A stretch of 24,314 bases of DNA from a virus, in IMG/VR virus record IMGVR_UViG_3300025769_000820, positions 1 through 24,314 of that record; one strand, given 5' to 3'. The stretch's first letter is position 1. Each line of letters starts with the position of its first letter. The translations under genes and the position numbers were made by a program. Below the pieces are notes generated by a model that saw nothing but the letters and a program-made list of their open reading frames with translations, had not been told where the DNA came from and did no database searches. Positions 11,861 to 23,328 of the stretch are shown one piece after another.

Positions 11861-12639
11861 TATATAAAGGTGCTAATGTTCTGAATGAACATAAGAAGAA
11901 GAAGTTAATGTACGATGGTCAATTAGAACAGATTACGTTCTTAGACCGTCGAGTTTACAAAAAGGAAGAAGGAGTTTATTACCCTTCTGTTACTACTGTT
12001 TTACAGTATATGCCTAAGAATAAGTTCTTCGATAACTGGCTGAAAGACGTTGGACATAATGCTGATCTCATTATGCGGAAAGCTGCACAAGAGGGTACAG
12101 CAGTACACGAGGCTGTAGAAGACCTGATTGCAGGTAAAGAGATTACTTGGATGGATGACTTCGGTAACGCTAAATACAACCTTACAGTTTGGAATATGAT
12201 CTTAAAAGCAGCAGAGTTTTTTAAGAAACATAAACCAACTATTATTGCTGCTGAAGAATTTACATTCTCAGACAAATACGAGTACGCAGGTACTGCAGAT
12301 TTGATTGTAGAGATGGATGGAGAAAGATGGTTACTTGATGTTAAAACTTCAAATAATTTACACCGTTCATACGACTTGCAGTTAGCAGCATATGCTAAAG
12401 CATGGGAAGAGATGTTCGGTCAAAAGATTGATAGAACAGGTATCTTATGGTTAAAATCTTCTAAGAGATCAGAATCAAAAAAAGAAGGAGTGTACCAAGG
12501 AAAAGGTTGGGAAATCAAACAAATCGATAATATCGATGAGAACTTCGAACTCTTTAAGACTATCTATAGTTTATATAAACTCGATAACCCGACTACGGAA
12601 CCTATTTATAATAGTTATCCTACCAAAGTTAAACTATGA
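11857..12639 (+). CDS. PD-(D/E)XK nuclease, RecB/Cas4-type
   Basis: 260 residues with all core motifs of the RecB-family nuclease fold in order: GTAVHEAVEDL (H84, E85), a beta strand with Glu (AAEEFTF), GTADLIVE (D148), LLDVKTS (D161-V-K163) and the Q-x3-Y motif (Q175, Y179). Such enzymes cut single-stranded DNA ends with a Mg or Mn ion. No Cys cluster for the iron-sulphur centre of Cas4/AddB is seen, so it is the plain single-domain form that is common in phages. Co-translation with the primase (ATGA overlap) points to a role in replication, recombination or end processing. The next gene also overlaps by 4 bases. Confidence 0.85.
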   Translation: MIYKGANVLNEHKKKKLMYDGQLEQITFLDRRVYKKEEGVYYPSVTTVLQYMPKNKFFDNWLKDVGHNADLIMRKAAQEGTAVHEAVEDLIAGKEITWMDDFGNAKYNLTVWNMILKAAEFFKKHKPTIIAAEEFTFSDKYEYAGTADLIVEMDGERWLLDVKTSNNLHRSYDLQLAAYAKAWEEMFGQKIDRTGILWLKSSKRSESKKEGVYQGKGWEIKQIDNIDENFELFKTIYSLYKLDNPTTEPIYNSYPTKVKL

Positions 12640-13487
12640 AACTAATCGAAGCTCTTCTATATGAAGCTCCTAAAAGCGCAAAAGCCATTATTATGGCAGG
12701 TGCTGCAGGTGCTGGTAAAACTACATTATATAAATCTGCAATCAAACCAAACTTACCTGCAGATCAATGGGAGTATTTAAATCCCGATACGTATATTGAG
12801 AGAGAAGAGAATCCGATGAACCTGTCAATGGCTAGTCAACAAGTTGATGCTAAAGACGTACCTCAAGCCATGGAAGGAAAGAAAAACTTCGTATGGGATA
12901 CAACAGCATCTAACGCTAATAGAATGCTTGGCGGTAAGATAGGAAATAAAAAAGAACCTCACCCAGGTTACTTAAATGACGGTAATTACGATTTCTTAAT
13001 GGTGATGGTATACGCTCACCCTATGGTATCGTTTTTACGTAACTTTAGTAGAGAGAGAAAAGTACCTAAGTTTGCCGTGTTAAAAACCTGGAACAGCGTT
13101 TACGGTAATATTGGAGCTTACAGCGCTAAATTAGGGAGGAACTTCCTTATGTATCAATCTCCAGCAGGAGATGCTGAGATGCAGAAAGAAGTAGATGCCT
13201 TCGAAGCTGCTTATAAAGCGAATAAATTAGAAGAGTACTTTACAGACCTCATCGAAAAAGGAGGAGATAAGTTCTCATCAAGTTTTAAATCTCAAGTACC
13301 TGATGAAGAATTATCTCCTGAAGAACTAGAAAAGAGACAAAAGAGCAGAGCGACTACTCAGAGACTCTTTCAACAAGAAGTAACTCAGTTAGCAACTAAC
13401 TTTGGCAAGGTTCGTGATGAGGTAGATAAGTACCTTGTAGGAAGTGAAGATGAAGTATCATCAAGAGTTAAGCAATTTGTAGGGTAA
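12636..13487 (+). CDS. P-loop kinase, zeta-toxin/polynucleotide-kinase-like
   Basis: 283 residues. A clear Walker A motif G22-A-A-G-A-G-K28-T-T is followed by NPDTYIE (about 49-55) and by a VWDTTASNANRM segment, an arrangement seen in zeta-toxin-like and polynucleotide-kinase-like P-loop proteins. A second conserved part has a basic RNFSRERKVP segment that could hold lid arginines. The C-terminal 80 residues are charged and helical. The first ten residues (MKLIEALLYE, then AP) look like the capsid-targeting peptide of T4 Alt (MELITELFDE), with a possible prohead-protease site after E10. The substrate is unknown: UDP-sugar, nucleic acid or protein are all possible. It overlaps the upstream gene by 4 bases and the downstream gene by one. 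Confidence 0.75.
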   Translation: MKLIEALLYEAPKSAKAIIMAGAAGAGKTTLYKSAIKPNLPADQWEYLNPDTYIEREENPMNLSMASQQVDAKDVPQAMEGKKNFVWDTTASNANRMLGGKIGNKKEPHPGYLNDGNYDFLMVMVYAHPMVSFLRNFSRERKVPKFAVLKTWNSVYGNIGAYSAKLGRNFLMYQSPAGDAEMQKEVDAFEAAYKANKLEEYFTDLIEKGGDKFSSSFKSQVPDEELSPEELEKRQKSRATTQRLFQQEVTQLATNFGKVRDEVDKYLVGSEDEVSSRVKQFVG

Positions 13488-15658
13488 TGAAAGTAGGAGT
13501 AATAGGAGGAGGATTTAAACCACCGCATAAAGGTCATTTTGCTTTTGCTAAACAAGCATTAAGCAAAGTACCGGACTTAGATAAGCTTCTTATTTACGTT
13601 GGAGGTAAAGTTAGAGCAGGAGCAGCTATTACTCAAAACCAAGCTATTGAGATCTGGAAACTCTATGCTAACGAACTACCAGGAGCTATTGAAATCCTAC
13701 CAGCAGATCAACCTATTGCAAAAGCATATAGTCAAGCAAGTAAAAATCCTGGAAATGAAGTTTTCTGGTTCCTAGGAGTTAGAGACGAAGATGACGCAAA
13801 AGAAGCAGATAGGAGAGAAGTTCATTTAAGAAAGAATCCTGAGAAGTATTCAAATCTAAATGTAATTAGGATTGCAGATACCGGTACAGATGTTAGCGGA
13901 ACAAAAGCAAGGAAGGCATTAGAAGCAGGAGATAAAGAAGCATTCTTTCAAGCACTGCCTGATGTAGTAGATAAAGATAAAGTATACGATATTGTGAAGA
14001 CACCGGAAACTAAAATGGCAGATGCTATCGATGAGTTATTTGCTAACTTCATGTATGAAGAACAAGAAGAAGTAGAGGAAGTAACTAAAGGCTCTCATGC
14101 AGCACCTATTGCAGTATTGCCTTCTGAGGAAAGACAGAAGCTACAAAACTATACAAAGATCTTACAAGACGCTTTACCAGATGAATTCGATGTAGAGTAC
14201 AGACAAGATCATATTAGAGTATCGGTACCGTATTTTGATAAAAATAAAAATCACCAAGATGATTGGACTCCTCATCAAAGACAGCTACCAGAAGAAGTAG
14301 CAGAAGAAACTACCGGTCAATTTGATTTTGCACCTCACATTGCTTCTATCTTAGAATACTGTATGACTAAAGGAATGAAAGTTACTCCTATCCCGGAAGT
14401 TAAGATCAGACAAGATGAAGAAAACGCAGCTAACTTATTCGGAAAAACAGGCTACTACGATCCACAGAATAGAGAGATTGTACTGTACGTAACCGGCCGT
14501 CATCCTAAGGATGTTTTAAGAAGCTTCTGTCACGAACTTATTCATCATATGCAAAACTTAGAGGGACAGAATCTAACTTTCTATACTACCGATGTTCATG
14601 CAAATGAAGAGTTAAAAGCTATTGAACAAGAAGCTCACGCTAAAGGTAGCTTCTTATTTAGAGATTGGGAAAACTCAAATAAAGAACAAGCTCCTATAGA
14701 TAAGGTAGATAGTTTACAAGAGATTTTGGATATGATTAATGAAGCAGGTTTAAAGGATTTTGAAAAACAAGCTTTAATTATGAAGATAAAAAAAGCAGCT
14801 AAAGGATCTGCCTCTACTAAACATCTGGAGCAAATTATTGATGATTTGATCAAAAAGCTTGAAAAACCTTCTGCTACCGGAGTTAAATATGTTCATGGAA
14901 AGAGAGTGGAAGAAGGAACTAAATACCGTTCTATCGTTGTAGATGTTAGAAAAGCAGTTAATGAGGCTCTTAATAAGTTACTGAAGGGAGAAAAGTTAGG
15001 AGGTTATAATTTACCGATTAAAAGGGAACCTACTGAGGAAGATAGAAAGTTAGCTAAGCAATACGGATTCACTCCTCTCGGACTCATGCTCAATTCTGAA
15101 TACCAATCAGCATACTTAGGAGTATTTAAGAGTCAGAGTGAGAAAGGTACACCAACTGAAGTAGGGGTATCACTCAAGTTTGCTCTTTCAGACGAAGTGG
15201 AGAAAGGAAAGTATTACGTTGATGGAGAAGCTTCTGCTGACGAAGCTGAATTAGATATCATTTTAGCATTCAACCCAGAAGACGGAACTAATATGCTTCA
15301 ACAAATTCAACCTACGTTAACAGACCTCATTCGTCACGAGACTGAGCACTTAACTCAAAGTGGAGAGCAGGTTAAGCCTGATAAATGGATGAGAGGTGAT
15401 CAAGCTAGGAGACAGAAGATTAGACAGAATCCTGAACTCTTTTATAAGTACTTCTTACTACCTAAAGAGGTGGATGCTAACATTCAAGGTTTGTACGCTA
15501 AGTCAAAATACGATAAAACTAACTTCCAGGACACTGTAGACGCTTACCTAACAGACTTAGTAGGTGATGGAATTATCACTCAAGCCAACAGTAAGCAGAT
15601 CTACAACAAGTGGAAAACTAGAGCAGCAGAAATAGGAGGAATACCAGAATTAAAATAA
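13487..15658 (+). CDS. Nucleotidyltransferase fused to two HExxH (zincin-like) regions
   Basis: 723 residues in at least three parts. Residues 1-175 form a cytidylyl/adenylyltransferase-type Rossmann fold: GGGFKPPHKGH with H14-x-G-H17, then FWFLGVRDEDD, and SGTKAR (137-142), the variant of ISxTxxR that binds the nucleotide phosphates. Residues about 180-205 are an acidic linker that itself contains an amphipathic ELFANFMYEE stretch. A first metalloprotease-like region has HELIHH (H349, E350, H353) with a downstream Glu-rich helix (ELKAIEQEAHAKG) that may give the third ligand. A second has HETEH (H617-H621) preceded by DLIRHE and followed by a helical C-terminus. The gene starts on the last base of the preceding stop and is 1 base from the next. 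Reaction partners are unknown. Fusion of these activities is unusual. Confidence 0.75.
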   Translation: MKVGVIGGGFKPPHKGHFAFAKQALSKVPDLDKLLIYVGGKVRAGAAITQNQAIEIWKLYANELPGAIEILPADQPIAKAYSQASKNPGNEVFWFLGVRDEDDAKEADRREVHLRKNPEKYSNLNVIRIADTGTDVSGTKARKALEAGDKEAFFQALPDVVDKDKVYDIVKTPETKMADAIDELFANFMYEEQEEVEEVTKGSHAAPIAVLPSEERQKLQNYTKILQDALPDEFDVEYRQDHIRVSVPYFDKNKNHQDDWTPHQRQLPEEVAEETTGQFDFAPHIASILEYCMTKGMKVTPIPEVKIRQDEENAANLFGKTGYYDPQNREIVLYVTGRHPKDVLRSFCHELIHHMQNLEGQNLTFYTTDVHANEELKAIEQEAHAKGSFLFRDWENSNKEQAPIDKVDSLQEILDMINEAGLKDFEKQALIMKIKKAAKGSASTKHLEQIIDDLIKKLEKPSATGVKYVHGKRVEEGTKYRSIVVDVRKAVNEALNKLLKGEKLGGYNLPIKREPTEEDRKLAKQYGFTPLGLMLNSEYQSAYLGVFKSQSEKGTPTEVGVSLKFALSDEVEKGKYYVDGEASADEAELDIILAFNPEDGTNMLQQIQPTLTDLIRHETEHLTQSGEQVKPDKWMRGDQARRQKIRQNPELFYKYFLLPKEVDANIQGLYAKSKYDKTNFQDTVDAYLTDLVGDGIITQANSKQIYNKWKTRAAEIGGIPELK

Positions 15659-15659
15659 A

Positions 15660-16949
15660 ATGCAAAGTTTGTTAGAATTGTTCGAAGTTACAAAAGAGGA
15701 TTTGAATCCTGAATTGAAGAAGTACCGTTTATATTGCGATATGGACGGAGTATTGTGTGATTTCAAATATCGTTTTGAATACCTATTCGGTAAAGGTCCT
15801 AGAGAGATCGAAGCTGAAAAAGGAGCACCTTACTTCTGGGCAATGATTAGAAGAGTAGGAGCTAAGTTCTGGTCTGGAATGCCTTGGACTCCATCAGGCC
15901 GTCAGTTATGGGCAGCAATCAAACAGTACGATCCAAAACTATTGACTGCACCTCCTAGAGCTTACAGAGACTTTAGTAACTTTGAACCTACAGCAGTTGA
16001 AGGAAAAACTCAATGGGCAGGTCAAAACTTAGGTTTAAGTTCTAGCGATGTTTTATTTAAGAGGTCAAAAGATAAGCAAGAAATTGCAACAAGTGATATC
16101 GCCAACGGTTATATCCCCATATTAATAGACGATAGGATTGATAATATTAACAACTGGAAATCCGCCGGAGGAATTGGGATACACCACCCAGAGAATGCAT
16201 CTGACATATCATCAGTTTTAGAAAGATTGAGAAAGTTATATAAAGAAGAACCTGTAGATGACTCTGAAAAAGAAGTACTCAAGGAACAGGTGAAGAAGAT
16301 AAAATTTACTCAACCCGCTTTAAATTATAGACCTGTATCTTTAGAACCTTACATAGATAAGGAGACAATGGACGAGCACTACGGTAATCACTTTAAGGGG
16401 TATACTGATAAATTAAATGCAGAGTTAAAAGAAAAAAACATTATAGTTGAAGCTGAAGATCAGATTGAAGCTATTCAAAAGATTTTAGGAAAGTACTCCA
16501 ATAACGACAAGATCAGAAACAATGGAGGAGGCTTCTACAACCACATACTCTACTTCGAGAATATGACTCCCATATATAAAGCTCCATCATCAAAACTCAG
16601 GAGGTTAATTGAAGAGAGTTTTAACTCTTTTACAGAATTCAAAAAACAATTTAAAGACGCTGGTTTAAAGCAGTTCGGTTCCGGTTGGGTATTTCTAATA
16701 GAGAAAGGAAATAAGTTAGTTATCGAATCTCACCCTAATCAAGATAACCCATATTTGGATAATCGATTTAAAGGGACTATCTTATTAGCAATGGATGTAT
16801 GGGAACACTCATACTATCTAAAACATAGATCTAGAAGAGAAGGTTATATAAACGACTTCCTTAGAGTAATTGATTACAGCGTTGCCGAAGGAAGATCTAA
16901 ACTGTTACAAAAAGAAGATGAGCGAAAGTCAACTGAAGAAAGAATTTGA
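15660..16949 (+). CDS. HAD-type 5'-nucleotidase fused to Mn/Fe superoxide dismutase
   Basis: 429 residues in one frame. Residues about 22-195 are a HAD phosphatase of the 5'(3')-deoxyribonucleotidase type: DMDGVLCDF (nucleophile D27, D29) and ILIDDR (D157, D158). After an acidic linker (about 196-218), residues 218-420 are a complete superoxide dismutase: ligands H240 (HYGNH), H295 (YNHILYF), D379 and H383 (DVWEHSYY), gateway Y248 and H244, and FGSGWVFLI. The H240-H295 spacing of 55 equals that of E. coli SodA, and G291 and Q361 (NQD) stand where Mn-type enzymes have their marker Gly and Gln, so manganese is favoured. The dismutase turns superoxide into oxygen and hydrogen peroxide. The N-terminus (MQSLLELFE) is helical and capsid-targeting-like. 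Confidence 0.88.
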   Translation: MQSLLELFEVTKEDLNPELKKYRLYCDMDGVLCDFKYRFEYLFGKGPREIEAEKGAPYFWAMIRRVGAKFWSGMPWTPSGRQLWAAIKQYDPKLLTAPPRAYRDFSNFEPTAVEGKTQWAGQNLGLSSSDVLFKRSKDKQEIATSDIANGYIPILIDDRIDNINNWKSAGGIGIHHPENASDISSVLERLRKLYKEEPVDDSEKEVLKEQVKKIKFTQPALNYRPVSLEPYIDKETMDEHYGNHFKGYTDKLNAELKEKNIIVEAEDQIEAIQKILGKYSNNDKIRNNGGGFYNHILYFENMTPIYKAPSSKLRRLIEESFNSFTEFKKQFKDAGLKQFGSGWVFLIEKGNKLVIESHPNQDNPYLDNRFKGTILLAMDVWEHSYYLKHRSRREGYINDFLRVIDYSVAEGRSKLLQKEDERKSTEERI

Positions 16950-17493
16950 TTCTAAAGCAGTAAATCGAGTTAGAAATCTAGTTAAGAAAGATTTTACTAG
17001 CCGAACTACAGTCGGAACAGGTTACTCTAAGAAGAGAGAGAAGCATAGCGAAGGAGACATCTGGAAAGAAGATGGTAGAACTTGGACTATAAGAAACGGT
17101 GTTAAACAAAATATAACTAAGTTAGACTCCGCTAAGAAATCTATGCAAACTCCTTTAACTTGCCCTAAGTGTGGAGGATCTATGAAACATCACTTAGCTA
17201 AAAAGATGTATAAGGTTCATGGCTTCTGTTTTGACTGTACTGTCGATATGGAAGCAGACTTACGAAAAGCAGGCTTGTACGAGAAGTACGAAAAGACTAT
17301 GATGAGAGGTAACATGGAAGCATGGGCAAACGGGTTAGAACAATGGGTACAGGACACCCTTGCAGAATCTATGACATATGTTACTGAAGAAGGTGATGTA
17401 GAGGACTGGAAAGGTAACACTCAGAAGCAGAAACAGGAGTTACTTACAGGTATGAACGAATACCTTAAGCATCTTAAGAAGCATATGGAGTAA
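16918..17493 (+). CDS. Zinc-ribbon protein, conserved hypothetical
   Basis: 191 residues from the ATG at 16918; an earlier in-frame ATG at 16870 would lie deeper inside the upstream gene and adds a non-conserved-looking tail, so I prefer 16918 (32-base overlap). The N-terminal 40 residues are basic. Then come EGDIWKEDGRTWTIRNGVKQ (about 45-64) and a four-Cys zinc ribbon C82-P-K-C85 ... C104-F-D-C107, followed by a helical charged C-terminus. I recall this arrangement from many T4-like marine phages, with no known function. The basic N-terminus and zinc ribbon suggest contact with nucleic acid or with the transcription machinery. This protein lacks the capsid-targeting-like start that its neighbours have. 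Confidence 0.7.
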   Translation: MSESQLKKEFDSKAVNRVRNLVKKDFTSRTTVGTGYSKKREKHSEGDIWKEDGRTWTIRNGVKQNITKLDSAKKSMQTPLTCPKCGGSMKHHLAKKMYKVHGFCFDCTVDMEADLRKAGLYEKYEKTMMRGNMEAWANGLEQWVQDTLAESMTYVTEEGDVEDWKGNTQKQKQELLTGMNEYLKHLKKHME

Positions 17494-17509
17494 CTATTTA
17501 TAAAGAAAC
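17494..17509 (+). repeat. 16-base leader repeat, copy 1 (contains TATTTATA)
   Basis: The sequence CTATTTATAAAGAAAC lies directly after the stop of the zinc-ribbon gene and 5 bases before the ATG at 17515. An identical copy is at 19500-19515, before another gene whose product has the same kind of N-terminus. It ends in TATAAAGA, one base from the T4 late promoter core TATAAATA, but so close to the ATG that a normal promoter would leave almost no leader. It could be a promoter for a very short leader, or a translation-enhancing leader. Confidence 0.5.
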
Positions 17510-17514
17510 TCTTT

Positions 17515-18699
17515 ATGCTTTTAACAGAATCTAAACTAACAGAAGTATTAACGGAAGGGTTAAAGTACCATCTCGATACTAAAACACCGTTATATGAAAA
17601 TGTATACCGTCCAGGTTCAGAAGCATACTTCTCTACTATCAAACAAGCTCGTCATTTAATGAACAGAGGAATCCTCACAGAACTATGTTTAGAGGATACG
17701 GAGCTTTTATTTGAAACTGAAGTAGGAGAGTATGGAGAGTTTGAAGGTAAAAGAGTACCTCTAGATTTCCCGATGATTACTGAAGTAGTAGTTGTTACTG
17801 AACCTCAGACTACAGAATACACTCAAGCATGGAATGCCGCCAAACAAGATGAAATCATCAGAGGTATCGTTGAAAAAGAAGCTAGAAAGAAAAATATAGA
17901 GCCATACAATGCATGGCTAGAAATGGCTAGCAAAGGTAAAGCAGCAGGAGGAGCAGCATATACTGTAGGAGCATCATCAGTATCACAGTACTTATCAGAA
18001 GAAGATATGAACCCAGATGCTGACGTTTCTAAGGTAATGCCCATCTTAGCGGAGTTTATGCTAGAAGGGAATAAGAAGTACGTTATTTTAACCGGTCAAG
18101 ATACTTTTAGAGAGATCCAAACTGAAAACGTAGATGTATGGGTAGTAGATTTAACTATCTACCAAGCAGATTCTAAAGAAACAATTGCCGAAGTTCTCAA
18201 CGAATATGTTGATTATGAACCTAAGTACTTTGCTACTTGGTTTAGGGTATTAAAAGATATTGTAAGTAAGACTGAAGAAGACGTACACTACTACATGAAA
18301 GACCTATCAGGACCAGCTCACAAAGCTGCTGAATACTTTTTAAACTTTTTTAAGAAGAACCCAGGCGTTCGAGAAAAACTCCGTAAAAGTATGGGTATGT
18401 CTGAAGCAAAGTATCAAGGTAGAGAAGTAAAGCTCAATAAACCACAGAGAAGCACCGGTCCTAAGAAGTACAAAGTATACACTAAGAACGATAAAGGAAA
18501 CGTCGTAGTAGTAAACTTTGGAGACGCTAAAGGAGGATTAACAGCTAAGATTAATAACTCTAAAGCAAGAAAAGCCTTCTCAGACCGCCACAACTGTCCC
18601 GCCAAAAAAGATAAAACTAAAGCAGGATACTGGTCTTGCCGATTACCAAGATATGCAAGTTTACTCGGACTCAAATCAAGCTTTGGAGGATACTGGTAG
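17515..18699 (+). CDS. DUF5872-type protein with capsid-targeting-like start
   Basis: 394 residues. The start (MLLTESKLTEVLTEG) is an amphipathic helix with possible (L/I)-x-E cleavage sites after E10 and E14. The middle (about 55-290) contains FETEVGEYGEFEGKRVPLDF and a long mixed alpha/beta region. The C-terminal domain (about 305-385: YQGREVKLNKP, GPKKYKVYTKN, VVNFGDAK, then DRHNCPAKK and GYWSCRL) matches the DUF5872 pattern, found in many phage head-associated or uncharacterised proteins, with two conserved Cys residues. Function is unknown; prohead or virion association is inferred from context. The last 47 bases overlap the cupin-like gene in another frame. Confidence 0.7.
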   Translation: MLLTESKLTEVLTEGLKYHLDTKTPLYENVYRPGSEAYFSTIKQARHLMNRGILTELCLEDTELLFETEVGEYGEFEGKRVPLDFPMITEVVVVTEPQTTEYTQAWNAAKQDEIIRGIVEKEARKKNIEPYNAWLEMASKGKAAGGAAYTVGASSVSQYLSEEDMNPDADVSKVMPILAEFMLEGNKKYVILTGQDTFREIQTENVDVWVVDLTIYQADSKETIAEVLNEYVDYEPKYFATWFRVLKDIVSKTEEDVHYYMKDLSGPAHKAAEYFLNFFKKNPGVREKLRKSMGMSEAKYQGREVKLNKPQRSTGPKKYKVYTKNDKGNVVVVNFGDAKGGLTAKINNSKARKAFSDRHNCPAKKDKTKAGYWSCRLPRYASLLGLKSSFGGYW

Positions 18700-18994
18700 G
18701 CCTTACCAGAATCTTTCTGTTACAGATAAATGTATCATTAGAGAGTTCTCTTCTAATATTGATCCTGAAGAATTTAAATGGCATCAGGATGATGAAGATA
18801 GAGTAGTAACTATTTTAGAATGTGGTAAAGGATGGGGCTTTCAGTATGATAACGAATTACCATACGAAGTAGCTCCAGGAGACATCCTATTTATATTAAG
18901 GCATGAATGGCACCGAGTAATCAAAGGCGAAGGTAACTTGGTGATAAAAATAGATTTAGATGACACAAGATTCCTTAGACAAGAAGAAAACTAA
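18653..18994 (+). CDS. Small cupin-like protein
   Basis: 113 residues. The pattern FKWHQDDEDR, then TILECGKGWGFQYDNELPYE, then VAPGDILFILRHEWHRVIKG is that of a small beta-barrel of the RmlC/cupin type: H (in KWHQ), D/E in the same strand, the PGD turn, and H (EWHRV) in the second cupin motif, so a metal site is possible. I recall close relatives in T4-like cyanophages and marine phages beside structural genes. The gene starts 47 bases inside the upstream gene, in another frame, which is unusually deep; a start further in would remove the first part of the domain, so I keep 18653. It lacks a Shine-Dalgarno sequence. Role unknown. Confidence 0.65.
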   Translation: MQVYSDSNQALEDTGRPYQNLSVTDKCIIREFSSNIDPEEFKWHQDDEDRVVTILECGKGWGFQYDNELPYEVAPGDILFILRHEWHRVIKGEGNLVIKIDLDDTRFLRQEEN

Positions 18995-19001
18995 GAGCGA
19001 T

Positions 19002-19172
19002 ATGTACGCTTTTATGCGTGAACTCATCGAAGAAATACTCGCTGAAGAAAAACCAGGGTTATGGGCTAACATTAGAGCTAAGAGAGCAAGAGGTGAAAAA
19101 CCAGCTCACAAAAACTCTAAAGCACATAAAGACGCAGTAGCATCTGGCAAGAAGATAAATAAAGATAGCTGA
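19002..19172 (+). CDS. Small basic protein with GLWANIRAKRARGE motif
   Basis: 56 residues from the ATG at 19002. An upstream in-frame ATG at 18960 would overlap the cupin gene by 35 bases and give a 70-residue product; 19002 is preferred because the product then begins MYAFMRELIEEILAEEK, like several neighbours. The rest, GLWANIRAKRARGEKPAH and a Lys/Ala-rich tail, is a short motif I recall from proteins of many aquatic phages, sometimes joined to larger structural proteins. It is strongly basic after residue 17, so it could bind DNA. A possible cleavage site follows LAE (E15). Function unknown. Confidence 0.6.
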   Translation: MYAFMRELIEEILAEEKPGLWANIRAKRARGEKPAHKNSKAHKDAVASGKKINKDS

Positions 19173-19249
19173 TGAAGTTTCCTATTCCGTTTATACCGAA
19201 GAAGAACTACGTCAGGAGATGTAGGAGATCAAATATAATGTTTTTGTAG
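19172..19249 (+). CDS. Possible 25-residue mini-protein
   Basis: An ATG overlaps the upstream TGA (TGATG) and opens a 25-residue frame beginning MKFPIPFIPKKNYVRRC and ending at TAG. The product is basic with a Pro/Phe-rich start. The stop-start overlap is like that of the real genes here, which is the only support. It may equally be chance in a 93-base spacer that carries the leader of the next gene. Confidence 0.25.
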   Translation: MKFPIPFIPKKNYVRRCRRSNIMFL

Positions 19250-19265
19250 TTTCCATTATACAGCT

Positions 19266-19496
19266 ATGACTAGAGAAAAATTAACAGAAATCATAAGAGA
19301 GGTACTTGCAGAGATGCAAGAAGCCAAAGATGTTCATAAAGCAATGAACCCAGGAATCTTATCAAAAGACTCAAGCCTAAAAGGAGAAGACGGTAAGATT
19401 AAAATCTCCAAAGTAAGACAGAAACTTAGTAGCATGAAAGATAAAGGTAGTACTAAAGCTAAGGCTTTGCGTAGGTTTATTAACTACCACGACTAA
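19266..19496 (+). CDS. Small basic protein with capsid-targeting-like start
   Basis: 76 residues: an amphipathic, acidic N-terminal helix MTREKLTEIIREVLAEM (possible cleavage after E16 in LAE), then a basic, Lys-rich part (KIKISKVRQKLSSMKDKG, then STKAKALRRFINYHD) that is likely helical. After removal of the first 16 residues the remainder would be a 60-residue basic peptide, as expected of an internal DNA-associated head protein. I recall similar short proteins ending ALRRFINYH in other marine phages. Function unknown. It has a leader of its own without Shine-Dalgarno sequence. Confidence 0.65.
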   Translation: MTREKLTEIIREVLAEMQEAKDVHKAMNPGILSKDSSLKGEDGKIKISKVRQKLSSMKDKGSTKAKALRRFINYHD

Positions 19497-19499
19497 TTG

Positions 19500-19515
19500 C
19501 TATTTATAAAGAAAC
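19500..19515 (+). repeat. 16-base leader repeat, copy 2 (contains TATTTATA)
   Basis: Exact second copy of CTATTTATAAAGAAAC found at 17494-17509. It lies between the stop of the 76-residue gene and the ATG at 19524, 8 bases before that ATG. Both copies precede genes for proteins with the same type of N-terminal helix. Confidence 0.5.
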
Positions 19516-19523
19516 AAGATAAC

Positions 19524-20885
19524 ATGGCCATATCTTTTAGTAAACAAATGCTCGTAGAAGCTGTAAAACAGATTTTAGTAGAGCACGAAACAGATCCTAA
19601 CTTAGAACTTACAGTAAGAGATTATCAAACTAAGCACTACCATATGTGCCCAGGTGCTAAGACATTATACCAGGATATTGAAAGTAAAGTAGAGGATATC
19701 GATCTAGCAGTAAGAGCTGCTAAACTTCAAGACGCCTTATTCGCTATGGAAGAGATGGCATTAGAAAGAGGCGCAACTGAAGCAGATGTACTTGCTGCCG
19801 AAGCAGTAGCTAATCAAATCATGTCGATGGCTCAGATGATGGGTCTAGAGCAAGAGCACTCTTATATTCAAGGTCATGTTGATAAAATTAAAGCAGCATC
19901 AACCGGGGTAGACGAAAACACAACAGAAGTCCCAACTACCGACGGTACTGAAAAAACCGCTACCCCAGATCAGAAAAAAGTTATCATGCAAGCTAGAAAA
20001 AACGGTACACCGTTATCTTTCCGTAAAAAAGGAGATATAAAACCAGCCATGGAAGAAACACTTTCGGTAGGTCATATCGACGACGAACCTGGTATGTTGA
20101 AGCAGTTTGCATTCGATACTGCTGAGTACGCTGTTAAGCTCTATAAATTGCTACACCAGTATGAACAGATGGAAGATCAAGTAGATTTTCCAAACTGGTG
20201 GCAGCACAAGGTAATGATGGCTAGAGAGTATATATCTAAAGCCACTCACTACTTAGAGTTTGAGACTATGAAGCCTCAAATCGATGCAGCAGTAGACGGT
20301 CATTCTGAAGAACCGGATGAAGAATTGAACGAACTCTTTGGTAAAGCAAAAAATAAGATTGTCAACTATCAAGGACACGATTACGAAATCTTAGATATTG
20401 ATAGCGCAGGTACTTTTACTTTAATCGATCCAAAAGATAAAAGTGCAAAACCTTTCTATGTCAACAAAAAGCAAATGAAAACCGGTAGAGTACCAGATGT
20501 AAAAGAGCCTGAAGTAGAAGAAGTGCCGTTAATGAATTTAAGAGAGGATGATGTTGAAGCACCTGCTACAGGTTTTGAGGATGACTCAGCTAAAGCACCT
20601 AAAGGCGATAAGAAGTTAAATAAAGCTGCTTCTAAAGACGATAAGATTATCTCTGCATTTCAGAAAATACAGCCTCTGTTTAAAAAAGCAGCTGCTGGAG
20701 ATAAAGAAGCTTTAGCTATCGTTAAAGCTAACCAAGATGTAATAAAAGCTTATAAAAAAATGAAGCAAAAGCATCTAACAGAATCAAAAGCTACTTGTTG
20801 CGGTAAGTGTGGGAGAACACACGTTAAAGGTACTGAATGTAAAAAACCTTTTTTAACAGGTAAAGATCACTGTAGAGTAAGATAA
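19524..20885 (+). CDS. Head-associated hypothetical protein with C-terminal Cys-rich finger
   Basis: 453 residues. A TTG nine codons upstream (19497) is open in frame, but it covers the repeated leader, so the ATG at 19524 is chosen. The start MAISFSKQMLVEAVKQILVE has two (L/I)-x-E sites (after E12 and E20). The body is Glu/Lys/Ala-rich and helical, with a DYQTKHYHMCPGAK segment and KLQDALFAMEEMALERGA. Residues about 270-300 hold a small beta domain (KNKIVNYQGHDYEILDID). The end, CCGKCGRTHVKGTECKK followed by DHCR, is a Cys/His cluster that may bind zinc. I recall this family, including the terminal finger, from aquatic T4-like phages. Role unknown; core or internal head protein is inferred. 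Confidence 0.65.
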   Translation: MAISFSKQMLVEAVKQILVEHETDPNLELTVRDYQTKHYHMCPGAKTLYQDIESKVEDIDLAVRAAKLQDALFAMEEMALERGATEADVLAAEAVANQIMSMAQMMGLEQEHSYIQGHVDKIKAASTGVDENTTEVPTTDGTEKTATPDQKKVIMQARKNGTPLSFRKKGDIKPAMEETLSVGHIDDEPGMLKQFAFDTAEYAVKLYKLLHQYEQMEDQVDFPNWWQHKVMMAREYISKATHYLEFETMKPQIDAAVDGHSEEPDEELNELFGKAKNKIVNYQGHDYEILDIDSAGTFTLIDPKDKSAKPFYVNKKQMKTGRVPDVKEPEVEEVPLMNLREDDVEAPATGFEDDSAKAPKGDKKLNKAASKDDKIISAFQKIQPLFKKAAAGDKEALAIVKANQDVIKAYKKMKQKHLTESKATCCGKCGRTHVKGTECKKPFLTGKDHCRVR

Positions 20886-20886
20886 G

Positions 20887-21531
20887 ATGACTAAGCAAGA
20901 ATTAAAAGATATTATCGAAGAAGCTTATTACGAAGTATTAGCATCTGGTTTACTTTTCGAAGCCGAAGGCGACGAAGAGGAGACTGAAGGGGTACCGGAA
21001 GAAGCTCCTGATACTGAATTTGCCGATGCTGAAGAAGTAGAGGCAGCAGAAGATGAAGTTACTGATCCAACACCAGAGATCTTAGCTAAATTCCCTACAT
21101 TAAAGAAAACCATCGTTCACTTACTTACTCCCGACTACGAAGAGTTTGTAGAAAAAATTGGCTGGATGTCCCCTAAACCATCTACATTCAAAGTAGAGTT
21201 TAAGAACGGTCAAGACTTCCAATTAAAGTGGATGGGTAAAGGCTTTCAAGCTACTGTAGAAGGTAAGAGATACTTCTTAACCAACGTATCAGAATACCAG
21301 CAATGTTTAGATAAGATTGGACATATGTTAGCATCAGGTCCTATTACCGATCAATTCGCCGATGCAGAATCCGGTGAAGATGTATTTGGTGGTGCTGAAG
21401 GTGGAGGCGGAGACTTCCCCGGTGAAGAAGGCGGAGCCGCTGGATTTGGAGGTGGTGAAGAAGGAGGAACCGAAGCAGGAGCAGAAACATCATCCGGTGA
21501 AGAAGATGTATTCGCAGGCGTAGAAGCATAG
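20887..21531 (+). CDS. Acidic protein with Gly/Glu-rich tail and capsid-targeting-like start
   Basis: 214 residues. The N-terminus (MTKQELKDIIEEAYYEVLAS, then GLLFEAEGDEEE) is an amphipathic helix with candidate protease sites IEE/A and LFE/A. An acidic linker of about 40 residues leads to a compact domain (about 65-155) with FKVEFKNGQDFQLKWMGKGF and VEGKRYFLTNVSEY, a pattern I recall from other marine phage proteins. The last 55 residues are almost only Gly, Glu, Asp and Ala (GGAEGGGGDFPGEEGG and similar), unstructured and very acidic. Acidic, protease-cleaved proteins are typical of prohead cores (T4 gp22, gp67), so a scaffold/core role is plausible. Confidence 0.65.
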   Translation: MTKQELKDIIEEAYYEVLASGLLFEAEGDEEETEGVPEEAPDTEFADAEEVEAAEDEVTDPTPEILAKFPTLKKTIVHLLTPDYEEFVEKIGWMSPKPSTFKVEFKNGQDFQLKWMGKGFQATVEGKRYFLTNVSEYQQCLDKIGHMLASGPITDQFADAESGEDVFGGAEGGGGDFPGEEGGAAGFGGGEEGGTEAGAETSSGEEDVFAGVEA

Positions 21532-21534
21532 AAA

Positions 21535-22734
21535 ATGGATATATTAGATAAACTCATACAAGAGTGGTCATGGAGAACAGAAAAAGGTTACCCTGATCTC
21601 ACTAACGAAGATGATCTTAAAATCTTAAGAGAAGTTTTTGGACTCGATCTTACTGAAGCTTACACCGAATTTCCTACCTCTGCTGAACAGATAAGCAATC
21701 CTAAGGTAGCAGAACTATTCAAAATAGTAAAATCTTTCCCTGGATTAAAGATAGAAGATCCAATAGCACTAGATCCTGTTAAGAAGAATAGTCCTAAAAT
21801 AACGAGAGCCTTAAAGAATAACAGAGATTTTATAGAGCATTTAGAAAACGGTCTAGGGATTGAAATAGAGGATCCCAATGAATTTATTAGATGGAACGGT
21901 CTTTCTATTAGTTTTGGAGAAGGTTCAAGAGGAGGTCGAGGCGTTAACAGTAAAGGTTTAAAGTTTGAGGAAGAGATTGCTCAAGACTTAAACAACTATA
22001 AAGCAGGAACTGAAGAATACATACATTCTGAACTTACTAAATCAATCATAAGAGAATTCTCACTAACCCCTACTAACTTCAGTGTTAAGAGCGAAGGTGG
22101 TGAAAATAAGAGAAGACCCTTAGAGTTCACAGAAAAAGGGCCGATCGTAGGATTCGCAGAAGATAATTTAGCTGCAACACTTACTGACTTAACAATTCTT
22201 AAAGGATCAGAAACGATATACCTCTCTCTAAAGTTCGGAGGAACTCTAACATTTTTTAACTCCGGAGTTGCCGTTACTGTTTTTCCAAAAGATGATTTCT
22301 CCGACGGTAAGATAGACACTCCGAACGGTGTATCCCTTTTAGATACTTTTGGTATCGACAACGAACTATTCTGTAGAGTATTTAATGAATACAAAGAAGA
22401 TGGATCCGGTCCTGATTTCTCACAGTATCATAAAGTTACTACTGATTACGACAAGGAGAAGCTATTCAGATTAGTAGAAAGCGGTATAGGTACAGGTTAC
22501 TATATGCTAAAAGGAGGTAGAACGACTGAATTTTTCTTCGTAGGAGACGAATATAATAAAGCAGCATCACAACCTACTTCTGGTATAGAAATACAGTATG
22601 GAGGAAAAACAGGTAAAGGTAAAAGAATAGATATTGTATTTGAATCTGAAAAATATAGGTTCAAAATTAATATTCGAAACAAGCAAGGAAAGTTATATCC
22701 ATCACATATTATGTGTGATTACAAGAAAAAGTAA
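21535..22734 (+). CDS. Possible restriction-fold (PD-(D/E)XK-like) nuclease
   Basis: 399 residues. The start MDILDKLIQEWSWRTEKGYP, then DLTNEDDLKILREVFG, is a module I recall at the N-terminus of many aquatic phage proteins. The body from about 137 has GLKFEEEIAQDL (E145-E147), then TDLTILKGSETIYLSLKFGG with D218 and S231-L-K233, which could be the E ... D ... (E/S)xK core of a nuclease in which Ser takes the place of the second acid. The C-terminal RFKINIRNKQGKLYPSHIM is another conserved-looking block. No closer family is recognised; the nuclease call is an inference from motif spacing. The first ten residues resemble a capsid-targeting peptide (LIQE). It follows the acidic protein by 3 bases. 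Confidence 0.5.
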   Translation: MDILDKLIQEWSWRTEKGYPDLTNEDDLKILREVFGLDLTEAYTEFPTSAEQISNPKVAELFKIVKSFPGLKIEDPIALDPVKKNSPKITRALKNNRDFIEHLENGLGIEIEDPNEFIRWNGLSISFGEGSRGGRGVNSKGLKFEEEIAQDLNNYKAGTEEYIHSELTKSIIREFSLTPTNFSVKSEGGENKRRPLEFTEKGPIVGFAEDNLAATLTDLTILKGSETIYLSLKFGGTLTFFNSGVAVTVFPKDDFSDGKIDTPNGVSLLDTFGIDNELFCRVFNEYKEDGSGPDFSQYHKVTTDYDKEKLFRLVESGIGTGYYMLKGGRTTEFFFVGDEYNKAASQPTSGIEIQYGGKTGKGKRIDIVFESEKYRFKINIRNKQGKLYPSHIMCDYKKK

Positions 22735-22752: not shown

Positions 22753-23328
22753 ATGAGAGGTTTTAAATTCGAACATATTGTAATACTAGTCTTAGGGGTA
22801 GCTTTACTATGGTTAACACAGTGCCGTAGAACAGAACCTATTGTAGATGAGATTATAAAAACAGAGGTTGTAACTAAATGGGATACTGTTGAGGTTGCTA
22901 AGACTGAATACGTTCCTAAAATCATTGAAAAGGTAGTAGTAAATATTGATACGTTTACTGCACCTATTGATACGATTTCAGTGTTAGAAGATTATTACGC
23001 AAAGTACTTTTACACTGATACTATTCAAATAGATACTTTAGGTTCTGTGGTGATAAATGATACTATCACTAGAAACTTAATTTCATTTAGAGATGTACAA
23101 TCCAACATTTTCATCCCAACAACTACAATTACTAATACTGTTTACCTCAACAGGAGGGAGTTTTACGGCGGTATTTCGTTAACTGGACAACCTACTCAAT
23201 TAGATTTTATTAACGGAGAGTTACTATACAAAGGTAAGAAGAGAAACGCTTACGGTATAGGGGTAGGTATCAATAATGAACTTGTACCTATCTACACTTT
23301 CAAAGTATTTTGGAAGATAGGTAAATGA
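22753..23328 (+). CDS. Membrane-anchored beta-rich protein
   Basis: 191 residues. One N-terminal hydrophobic segment (about residues 8-23, HIVILVLGVALLWLTQ) is preceded by two basic residues and followed by C24, so it is either a signal anchor with the remainder outside the cytoplasm or, less likely because of the Gln before the Cys, a lipoprotein. The exported part is Thr/Val/Asp-rich with repeated DTI/DTF units, and the C-terminus (FYGGISLTGQPTQLDF, then YGIGVGINNELVPIY) alternates like a membrane or barrel strand pair. I recall comparable proteins in phages of Bacteroidota. Spanin or envelope function in lysis is possible but unproven. Its stop overlaps the terminase ATG (ATGA). Confidence 0.6.
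   Translation: MRGFKFEHIVILVLGVALLWLTQCRRTEPIVDEIIKTEVVTKWDTVEVAKTEYVPKIIEKVVVNIDTFTAPIDTISVLEDYYAKYFYTDTIQIDTLGSVVINDTITRNLISFRDVQSNIFIPTTTITNTVYLNRREFYGGISLTGQPTQLDFINGELLYKGKKRNAYGIGVGINNELVPIYTFKVFWKIGK

Follow-up and report, generated by a model that had tools for sequence, protein, structure and literature searches.

Which proteins does a T4-like phage carry in its head, and how are they marked? The question is raised by an IMG/VR virus record of 24,314 bases (IMGVR_UViG_3300025769_000820; the whole stretch is called the window here), a fragment of a marine T4-like phage in which tail and fibre genes, a primase and a RecB-type nuclease are followed by a block of genes with similar starts and then by terminase. 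The initial annotation had proposed that at least eight products of this block begin with a short helix ending in (L/I)-x-E, resembling the N-terminal sequences that route T4 Alt and the T4 internal proteins (IPs) into the prohead. All eight N-termini are indeed present in the block products, and comparison with related phages shows that such leaders are shared, portable between proteins, bounded by [LI]xE (x, any residue) and found together with gp21. We conclude that they are quite probably T4-type signals for capsid targeting, portable from protein to protein and removed by the prohead protease.

In this proposal, which is built on comparative sequence analysis, an N-terminal peptide of 9-41 residues would carry a protein into the core of the assembling prohead, a gp21-type prohead protease would cut at the terminal [LI]xE and leave the free protein in the head, and the freed protein would be injected together with the DNA. 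Several interchangeable kinds of leader would do this work (short and T4-IP-like; MKKSxLxxIIKEVLxE; FDLKKFLVENKLTxNSKLLxE, of ~24 residues; and one of 41 residues with DKxILEWSxRTxKGYPD), preceding a large and variable cargo that would include a kinase, a nucleotidase, a superoxide dismutase (SOD), a restriction-type nuclease and dozens of uncharacterised small proteins; fused cargo would keep sites between its domains, much as a polyprotein does. The leaders resemble those of T4 IPI, IPII, IPIII and Alt in being short N-terminal peptides with hydrophobic residues 4 and 7, I or L at 8 and E at 10 (PMC9026906, PMC5694885; papers are cited here for the sections available to us); in IPIII, residues 4 and 7 serve targeting, and 8 and 10 processing (PMC9026906). 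They also share with the T4 sequences the [LI]xE boundary and the portability between proteins, T4 cargo being cut at that boundary and injected (PMC9026906, PMC5694885). The annotation was mistaken in having Alt cut after MELITELFDE, since Alt is processed at ITE-6 (PMC5694885).

The kinase leader matches the T4 IPIII map

12636..12665, + strand: kinase leader MKLIEALLYE/A, 10 residues, predicted cut after E10 (57 distinct homologous N-termini)
12666..13487, + strand: kinase body, P-loop kinase (Zeta_toxin / AAA_33 in Pfam; domain starts at residue 12-18)

The scans of the kinase, SOD, nucleotidase and nuclease families covered the best 80 of 536, 585, 578 and 82 relatives, respectively, ranked by similarity to queries that contain the leader. 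Among 57 distinct kinase N-termini, E at position 10, I or L at 8, and L, I or V at 7 are each found in 57/57, and residue 4 is L in 56 and I in one; residues 5, 6, 9 and 11-14 are variable, and position 10 is never D. The fixed positions 4, 7, 8 and 10 thus equal the IPIII map position by position, each critical residue being kept in 56-57 of the 57 kinases; other leaders conform less exactly.

A 41-residue leader is replaced by a T4-like one

21535..21657, + strand: 41-residue leader of the nuclease-like protein, ending DLTE/A, predicted cut after E (conservation and leader swap)
21658..22734, + strand: nuclease-like body, restriction-endonuclease-like fold in model residues 128-399 (AlphaFold2, VIA-align)

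For the protein at 21535, the initial annotation had placed the cut at MDILDKLIQE/W. We rejected E10/W11 because conservation continues through it, up to L39-x-E41 (E41 is kept in at least 90% of 21 sequences), and because of a leader swap. In four other phages (L417, L419, L420, L423) a leader like that of T4 IPIII, which starts MKTYQEFIAEA, stands on the nuclease body in place of the 41-residue one: MKTFKQFFRE/AFTVFPKS, MRTFKEFFRE/AFTVFPKS and MKTFKQYFFE/SYSVFPKT (the slash marks the boundary), a likeness to T4 that can be written M(K/R)TFKxFFRE/A or MKTFKQYFFE/S. Both versions join the body at the same residue, which is our clearest indication that the 41-residue module is functionally equivalent and that its boundary, with the putative cut, is E41/A42. 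Cyanophage homologs of the body showed no 41-residue leader, so that this leader is best seen as an add-on. Their neighbors have starts of the MKTFKQF/MKDFKKL type, and a marine single-cell virus and cyanophage S-RSM4 (L148:8881-10122; L146:9610-9951) have MKNFFQFLTEA and MKTFKQFREE starts near a nuclease-body homolog; among marine relatives of T4, IP-like leaders may be widespread.

By BLAST, the 41-residue leader precedes seven body families (of 80 loci, 48 were read, of which 47 could be placed in families). One pair of these bodies matches at E 3e-5, and the bodies may be remotely related to one another; we therefore speak of unrelated bodies for the ~24-residue leader alone. The AlphaFold2 model of the 21535 protein has a predicted local distance difference test score (pLDDT) of 84.9, with 57-74 in the leader part. 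VIA-align places the body at Z 9.2 to HinP1I (2fkc, 206 residues) and Z 7.6 to MspI (1sa3), the best Foldseek E being only 0.019, and E145, D218, S231 and K233 are invariant in 21 sequences. A restriction-type nuclease is likely, short of proof. It is a guess, drawn solely from the 7-deazaguanine genes of Flavobacterium phage immuto described below, that modified phage DNA makes such a nuclease harmless to the phage.

The ~24-residue leader precedes many unrelated bodies

A leader of ~24 residues, of which the window holds no copy, was sought in viral contigs with the exact pattern F[DN]L[KR]xFLxEN[KR]LT. At least 120 stretches and at least 152 matches were found, and 147 of the matches listed lie within 12 codons of an ATG. 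Because the pattern itself fixes the first 13 residues, conservation can be tested only from residue 14 on. The proteins among the matches listed fall into 51 body families, or 49 after merging pairs with phmmer E <0.1 (7 of 128 unique proteins, of 90 residues or less, were dropped before this count, a number derived from the family sizes). With one protein taken per family, residues 14-21 are conserved as xNS[KR]LLxE, and the information content is 2.04 bits at E21 (E in 37/51) and 0.38 bits one residue later. Within residues 18-24, [LIVM]xE is present in 47 and [LIVM]xD in 2 of the 49 families listed, compared with [LIVM]xE in only 4-6 of 51 in shifted windows.

All ten of the tested contigs with this leader encode gp21, and one locus (L509) has four consecutive genes that carry it. 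Where copies lie inside longer open frames, 9/11 have [LI]xE about 10 residues or less upstream (by-eye count). Pfam searches with 10 of the 49 bodies gave one HD domain above the cut-off, one sub-threshold match and eight proteins without a match. Another leader, QFxRMQxLAGIITE, occurs twice in immuto and was found in only 4 stretches of viral contigs, and so is not widespread as judged by that exact pattern.

Superoxide dismutase, nucleotidase and fused proteins

15660..15686, + strand: leader of the nucleotidase-SOD protein, MQSLLELFE/V, 9 residues, predicted cut after E (homologous N-termini)
15687..16949, + strand: body, 5'-deoxyribonucleotidase fused to Fe/Mn superoxide dismutase (PHROG 2643; Pfam Sod_Fe_N/C)
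16278..16286, + strand: internal L-K-E site before the SOD domain (EVLKE/QVKKIKF), residues 207-209 (junction comparison)

Nucleotidase homologs carry [LI]xE within the first 20 residues in 58 of 61 distinct N-termini, as against 25.5% of 976 proteins, and [LI]xD is also frequent (28/61); 5 of 66 N-termini had been dropped because no ATG was in reach, and one of 80 loci lacked the anchor. A sequence search of the PDB gave no match for either the nucleotidase or the kinase. In almost every one of the 60 matches listed, the alignment to a solved SOD starts at query residue 10-12, and the phage homologs have about 10 extra residues, ending [LI]xE, ahead of that start. Stand-alone SODs of related phages begin MKLSKLILE/NKEFKLPSL, MKIKDILFE/QKEFKLLEL or MSDILLE/AKGFSLPSL. 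A second group of phage SODs (most loci of L163-L230; e.g., L191:3923-5461) is ~510 residues long with an uncharacterised C-terminal half; its N-terminal part of ~30 residues ends [LI]xE directly before MKKIGIEKLPYSYSAL, and in 28 distinct sequences the E is kept in 28/28, with P3 being I in 16 and L in 12.

The window's only fusions are nucleotidase-SOD and adenylyltransferase-peptidase. In two more distant relatives, whose parts were assigned to window proteins by eye and by BLAST, fusion goes further: L005 (8231-13039) joins adenylyltransferase, peptidase, SOD, GLWANI, kinase and nucleotidase parts in one chain of 1602 residues, and L006 (6044-9088) most of the same parts in one of 1014. 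At 7/7 fusion junctions examined, including that of the window's nucleotidase-SOD, an [LI]xE is found in the 14 residues that precede the domain, over a background of 12-15% of 14-mers in these proteins that contain one; these are not seven independent events, because the three that involve SOD are mutually related. The spacing from site to SOD is identical in all three SOD fusions, and the fused kinase has its site four residues before PKA, the common spacing of stand-alone kinases.

The junctions bear on what we regard as the best alternative, namely that leaders dock to the prohead core, or to another assembly partner, and stay uncut, with the final E in the binding face. T4 separates targeting (4, 7) from processing (8, 10), so that docking without cutting is possible (PMC9026906), and the conservation of the 41-residue leader far past residue 10 implies selection for more than a cut site. 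At the junctions, however, the hydrophobic targeting helix is gone and [LI]xE is kept, which favors cutting over docking; moreover, conservation of the ~24-residue leader stops exactly at the E, and this E is never D in the kinases and rarely so in the ~24-residue leader. We consider docking of uncut leaders unlikely.

The prohead protease and the capsid protein

No DNA-level match to the window was found in the phage collection. By terminase, the closest isolate is immuto (77% identity), which has the same gene order from primase to terminase and, downstream, gp20, gp21 (the prohead protease, immuto gp070; Peptidase_S77, E 8.9e-35) and Gp23 (E 6.3e-84); the window's own head genes are out of view because it stops inside the terminase gene. 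A gp21-type protease (Peptidase_S77) is encoded in 10/10 relatives tested. In six relatives Gp23 starts M-E/D-L/I-N-x-L-L/F-(N)E and contains further sites; the last of them, (I/L)-(V/I)-x-E, lies around residue 60, N-terminal to the domain that Pfam assigns to Gp23. In T4, cleavage of gp23 takes place after residue 65.

Might the cutter instead be a peptidase among the cargo, for instance the metallopeptidase part of the 13487 protein, acting perhaps after injection? A metallopeptidase family matches that protein weakly (DUF6782, E 0.00056, short of the cut-off), the L005 and L006 chains join a peptidase region to SOD and nucleotidase (and in L005 to the kinase as well), and auto-processing peptidases have been proposed for polyvalent proteins (PMC5512222). 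Yet the motif is the published specificity of T4 gp21 and recurs in these phages' own Gp23 propeptides, and gp21 is present in all relatives tested, so that a cargo peptidase strikes us as a decidedly improbable cutter.

The motif is concentrated in the block

A strict motif, hydrophobic-x-x-hydrophobic-[LI]-x-E in the first 25 residues, was fixed beforehand from the mutational map of T4 IPIII, and being drawn from published T4 work it avoids fitting to the window proteins; the loose motif is the [LI]xE rule of the initial annotation. In the window the strict motif is found in 7/11 block genes and 0/11 other genes (Fisher p=0.0019), and the loose motif in 8/11 and 3/11 (p=0.043); the nucleotidase-SOD start MQSLLELFE fails the strict form. 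The start said to be shared across the block therefore extends to most of its genes, three of the 11 being leaderless, and the statement that the tail, primase, RecB-type nuclease and terminase genes do not start this way is true of the strict form only, because the loose hits include the RecB-type nuclease (11857) and terminase (23325).

The expected enrichment across whole genomes was borne out. In the GenBank annotation of immuto the strict motif marks 7/14 block genes, 3/16 head-region genes and 12/208 others; shuffled N-termini and internal 25-mers reach it in 1-3%. With the block delimited by flanking genes, the motif is concentrated there in five related genomes: immuto (7/14 versus 13/216 elsewhere, p 3e-5), G001 (3/15 versus 5/181, p 0.016), G002 (4/10 versus 12/200, p 0.004), G003 (3/11 versus 10/203, p 0.02) and G005 (6/13 versus 6/84, p 0.001), tests that are not independent because the genomes are related. 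G004 and the window were left out, the flanking gene not being found; gene starts in G001-G005 came from our own caller, and 186 of 216 shared immuto genes agree with the GenBank start. Among 255 called genes of T4 the strict motif picks up IPII, IPIII, gp68, gp24 and gp2, together with hits that have no known tie to the head; with its misses, given below, this makes it a fair but leaky detector. A motif-free comparison in immuto (first 35 residues of proteins with non-matching bodies) gave 16 pairs scoring at least 40 versus 2 for internal segments; the highest scores (99, 95, 84) are repeated leaders, and the remainder includes lipoprotein signal peptides and chance pairs.

It is very improbable that small proteins of these phages in general begin in this way (through composition, translation or some other binding partner) with no link to the head: leaders do occur outside the block, as in the 12/208 above, and a MKLDLLKKLIKEAVKEAV-type start recurs in the genomes and adjoins baseplate genes in immuto, but enrichment is local to the block and head region, the same [LI]xE boundary is seen across leaders of different length, one leader is swapped for a T4-IP-like one, and Gp23 and gp21 of the same phages carry the motif. 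Local enrichment, E boundary and leader swap likewise tell against a generic amphipathic start.

Other proteins of the block

13487..15658, + strand: adenylyltransferase and metallopeptidase protein, leaderless (immuto homolog gp088 annotated as NadR-type adenylyltransferase)
17515..17556, + strand: leader MLLTESKLTEVLTE of a 394-residue protein, predicted cut before G (strict motif; family mixed)
19002..19046, + strand: leader MYAFMRELIEEILAE, predicted cut before E, preceding the GLWANI body (homologous starts)
19266..19313, + strand: leader MTREKLTEIIREVLAE, predicted cut before M (strict motif; homologs found)
19524..19583, + strand: leader MAISFSKQMLVEAVKQILVE, predicted cut before H (near relatives share SFNKxxIxEAIQEVLAE and then diverge)
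20887..20961, + strand: leader MTKQELKDIIEEAYYEVLASGLLFE of an acidic protein, predicted cut before A (family comparison)

Homologs support a start at 19002 (MYAFMREL..) and not 18960, and the 19524 product begins at the ATG at 19524. In the GLWANI family, [LI]xE immediately precedes the body in 10/10 distinct starts, and the leaders themselves differ. ADP-ribosyltransferase was set aside as an identity for the 17515 protein, the model being poor (pLDDT 56.6) and nothing concluded from it.

Evidence that weighs against capsid targeting

Several observations count against the proposal that the leaders target proteins to the head and are cut there: i) three of the 11 block genes, those at 13487 (adenylyltransferase-peptidase), 16915 and 18653, are leaderless; ii) single nucleotidase forms end LLGG, LLGN, LLGV or LLDA, without E; iii) many homologs of the 17515 protein have no site and start as MIQLREIVGLPSLQYHL, and one has LLVD; iv) in the 20887 family the EVLxE site has its E in 15/18, the window and two close relatives having S, S and T, and in the window protein the next site, LLFE/A (putative cut after E), follows a few residues on; v) the 41-residue leader is conserved well past residue 10, as discussed above; vi) the strict motif skips T4 IPI, Alt, gp67, gp22, gp21 and gp23, and among its 14 other-than-background T4 hits the known cleaved head proteins are IPII, IPIII, gp68 and gp24; vii) gp21 was matched in one of seven contigs with second-group SODs, a contig that also has Gp23, and the others may be fragments; viii) the window is a 24-kb fragment that contains no head genes; and ix) no virion proteome of such a phage was found in the open-licence literature, in the sections available to us. 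Taken as a whole, the idea of capsid-targeting-like leaders with a T4-type prohead-protease site has strong comparative support, with the cut misplaced by the initial annotation in the 21535 protein, the site shifted in that at 20887 and the family mixed at 17515.

Relation to known systems and significance

T4 marks a handful of proteins in this way; here one leader stands on at least 49 families, leaders can be longer (24 and 41 residues), SOD and a probable restriction-type nuclease are among the marked proteins, and fused cargo keeps sites between domains. In the giant phages SPN3US and phiKZ the prohead protease likewise trims propeptides from injected head proteins, and in SPN3US it processes eight of ~50 head proteins (PMC5694885); several propeptides there exceed 100 residues and the motif is A/S-x-E, and the sections available describe no short leader that is portable across dozens of families. 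The 1602-residue L005 protein recalls polyvalent proteins, which are multidomain, combine unlike activities, are predicted to be packaged and injected, and often include a metallopeptidase (PMC5512222), although in the window most parts are encoded by individual genes, the majority of which have their own leader, and the sites fit gp21 specificity. We found no account of leaders of this kind in these phages in the open-licence literature, as far as its available sections go, and the Far-T4 paper (PMC4360716) uses neither 'protease' nor 'internal'.

We lean, with some reserve, toward a broader view in which aquatic T4-like phages have a general means of head loading, with a few interchangeable tags, each ending at the protease site, on dozens of proteins that are exchanged rapidly; the head would thereby serve as a delivery vehicle for SOD, nucleotidase, kinase, restriction-type nuclease, HD hydrolase and hydrophobic proteins, and fused cargo would be cut apart within it. 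Injected proteins decide the first minutes of an infection and are nearly unrecognisable in uncultured phages. If the leaders do act as such tags, i) the injected cargo of many marine and freshwater phages could be listed from sequence alone; ii) the tags would reveal new anti-host and anti-defence proteins, and could serve as portable head-loading signals; and iii) superoxide dismutase and a restriction-type nuclease would join the proteins that phages are known to package, and a prohead protease would be seen to process cargo in the manner of a polyprotein.

Neighboring genes and further observations

Between the nuclease-like gene and terminase, the window encodes a protein (22753-23328) whose N-terminus is a membrane or lipoprotein segment (MRGFKFEHIVILVLGVALLWLTQC); at this position immuto has the leader-bearing gp077/gp076 instead. 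Immuto also has gp078, a protein with the 41-residue leader that resembles the window's nuclease-like protein, and a 7-deazaguanine DNA modification set (L011, record 18607-37015) comprising FolE, QueD, QueE, QueC, a QueF-annotated gene and DpdA. Directly before its baseplate genes lies a small protein (81525-81944, L012) starting MKLDLLKKLIKEAVKEAVREEL or similar, with matches in G002-G005. In T4 itself, gene 61.1 (18966-19130, locus L141) surfaced as a motif hit; its product starts MKTFKEFIKED, close to the IPIII leader, and may be an unnoticed internal protein.

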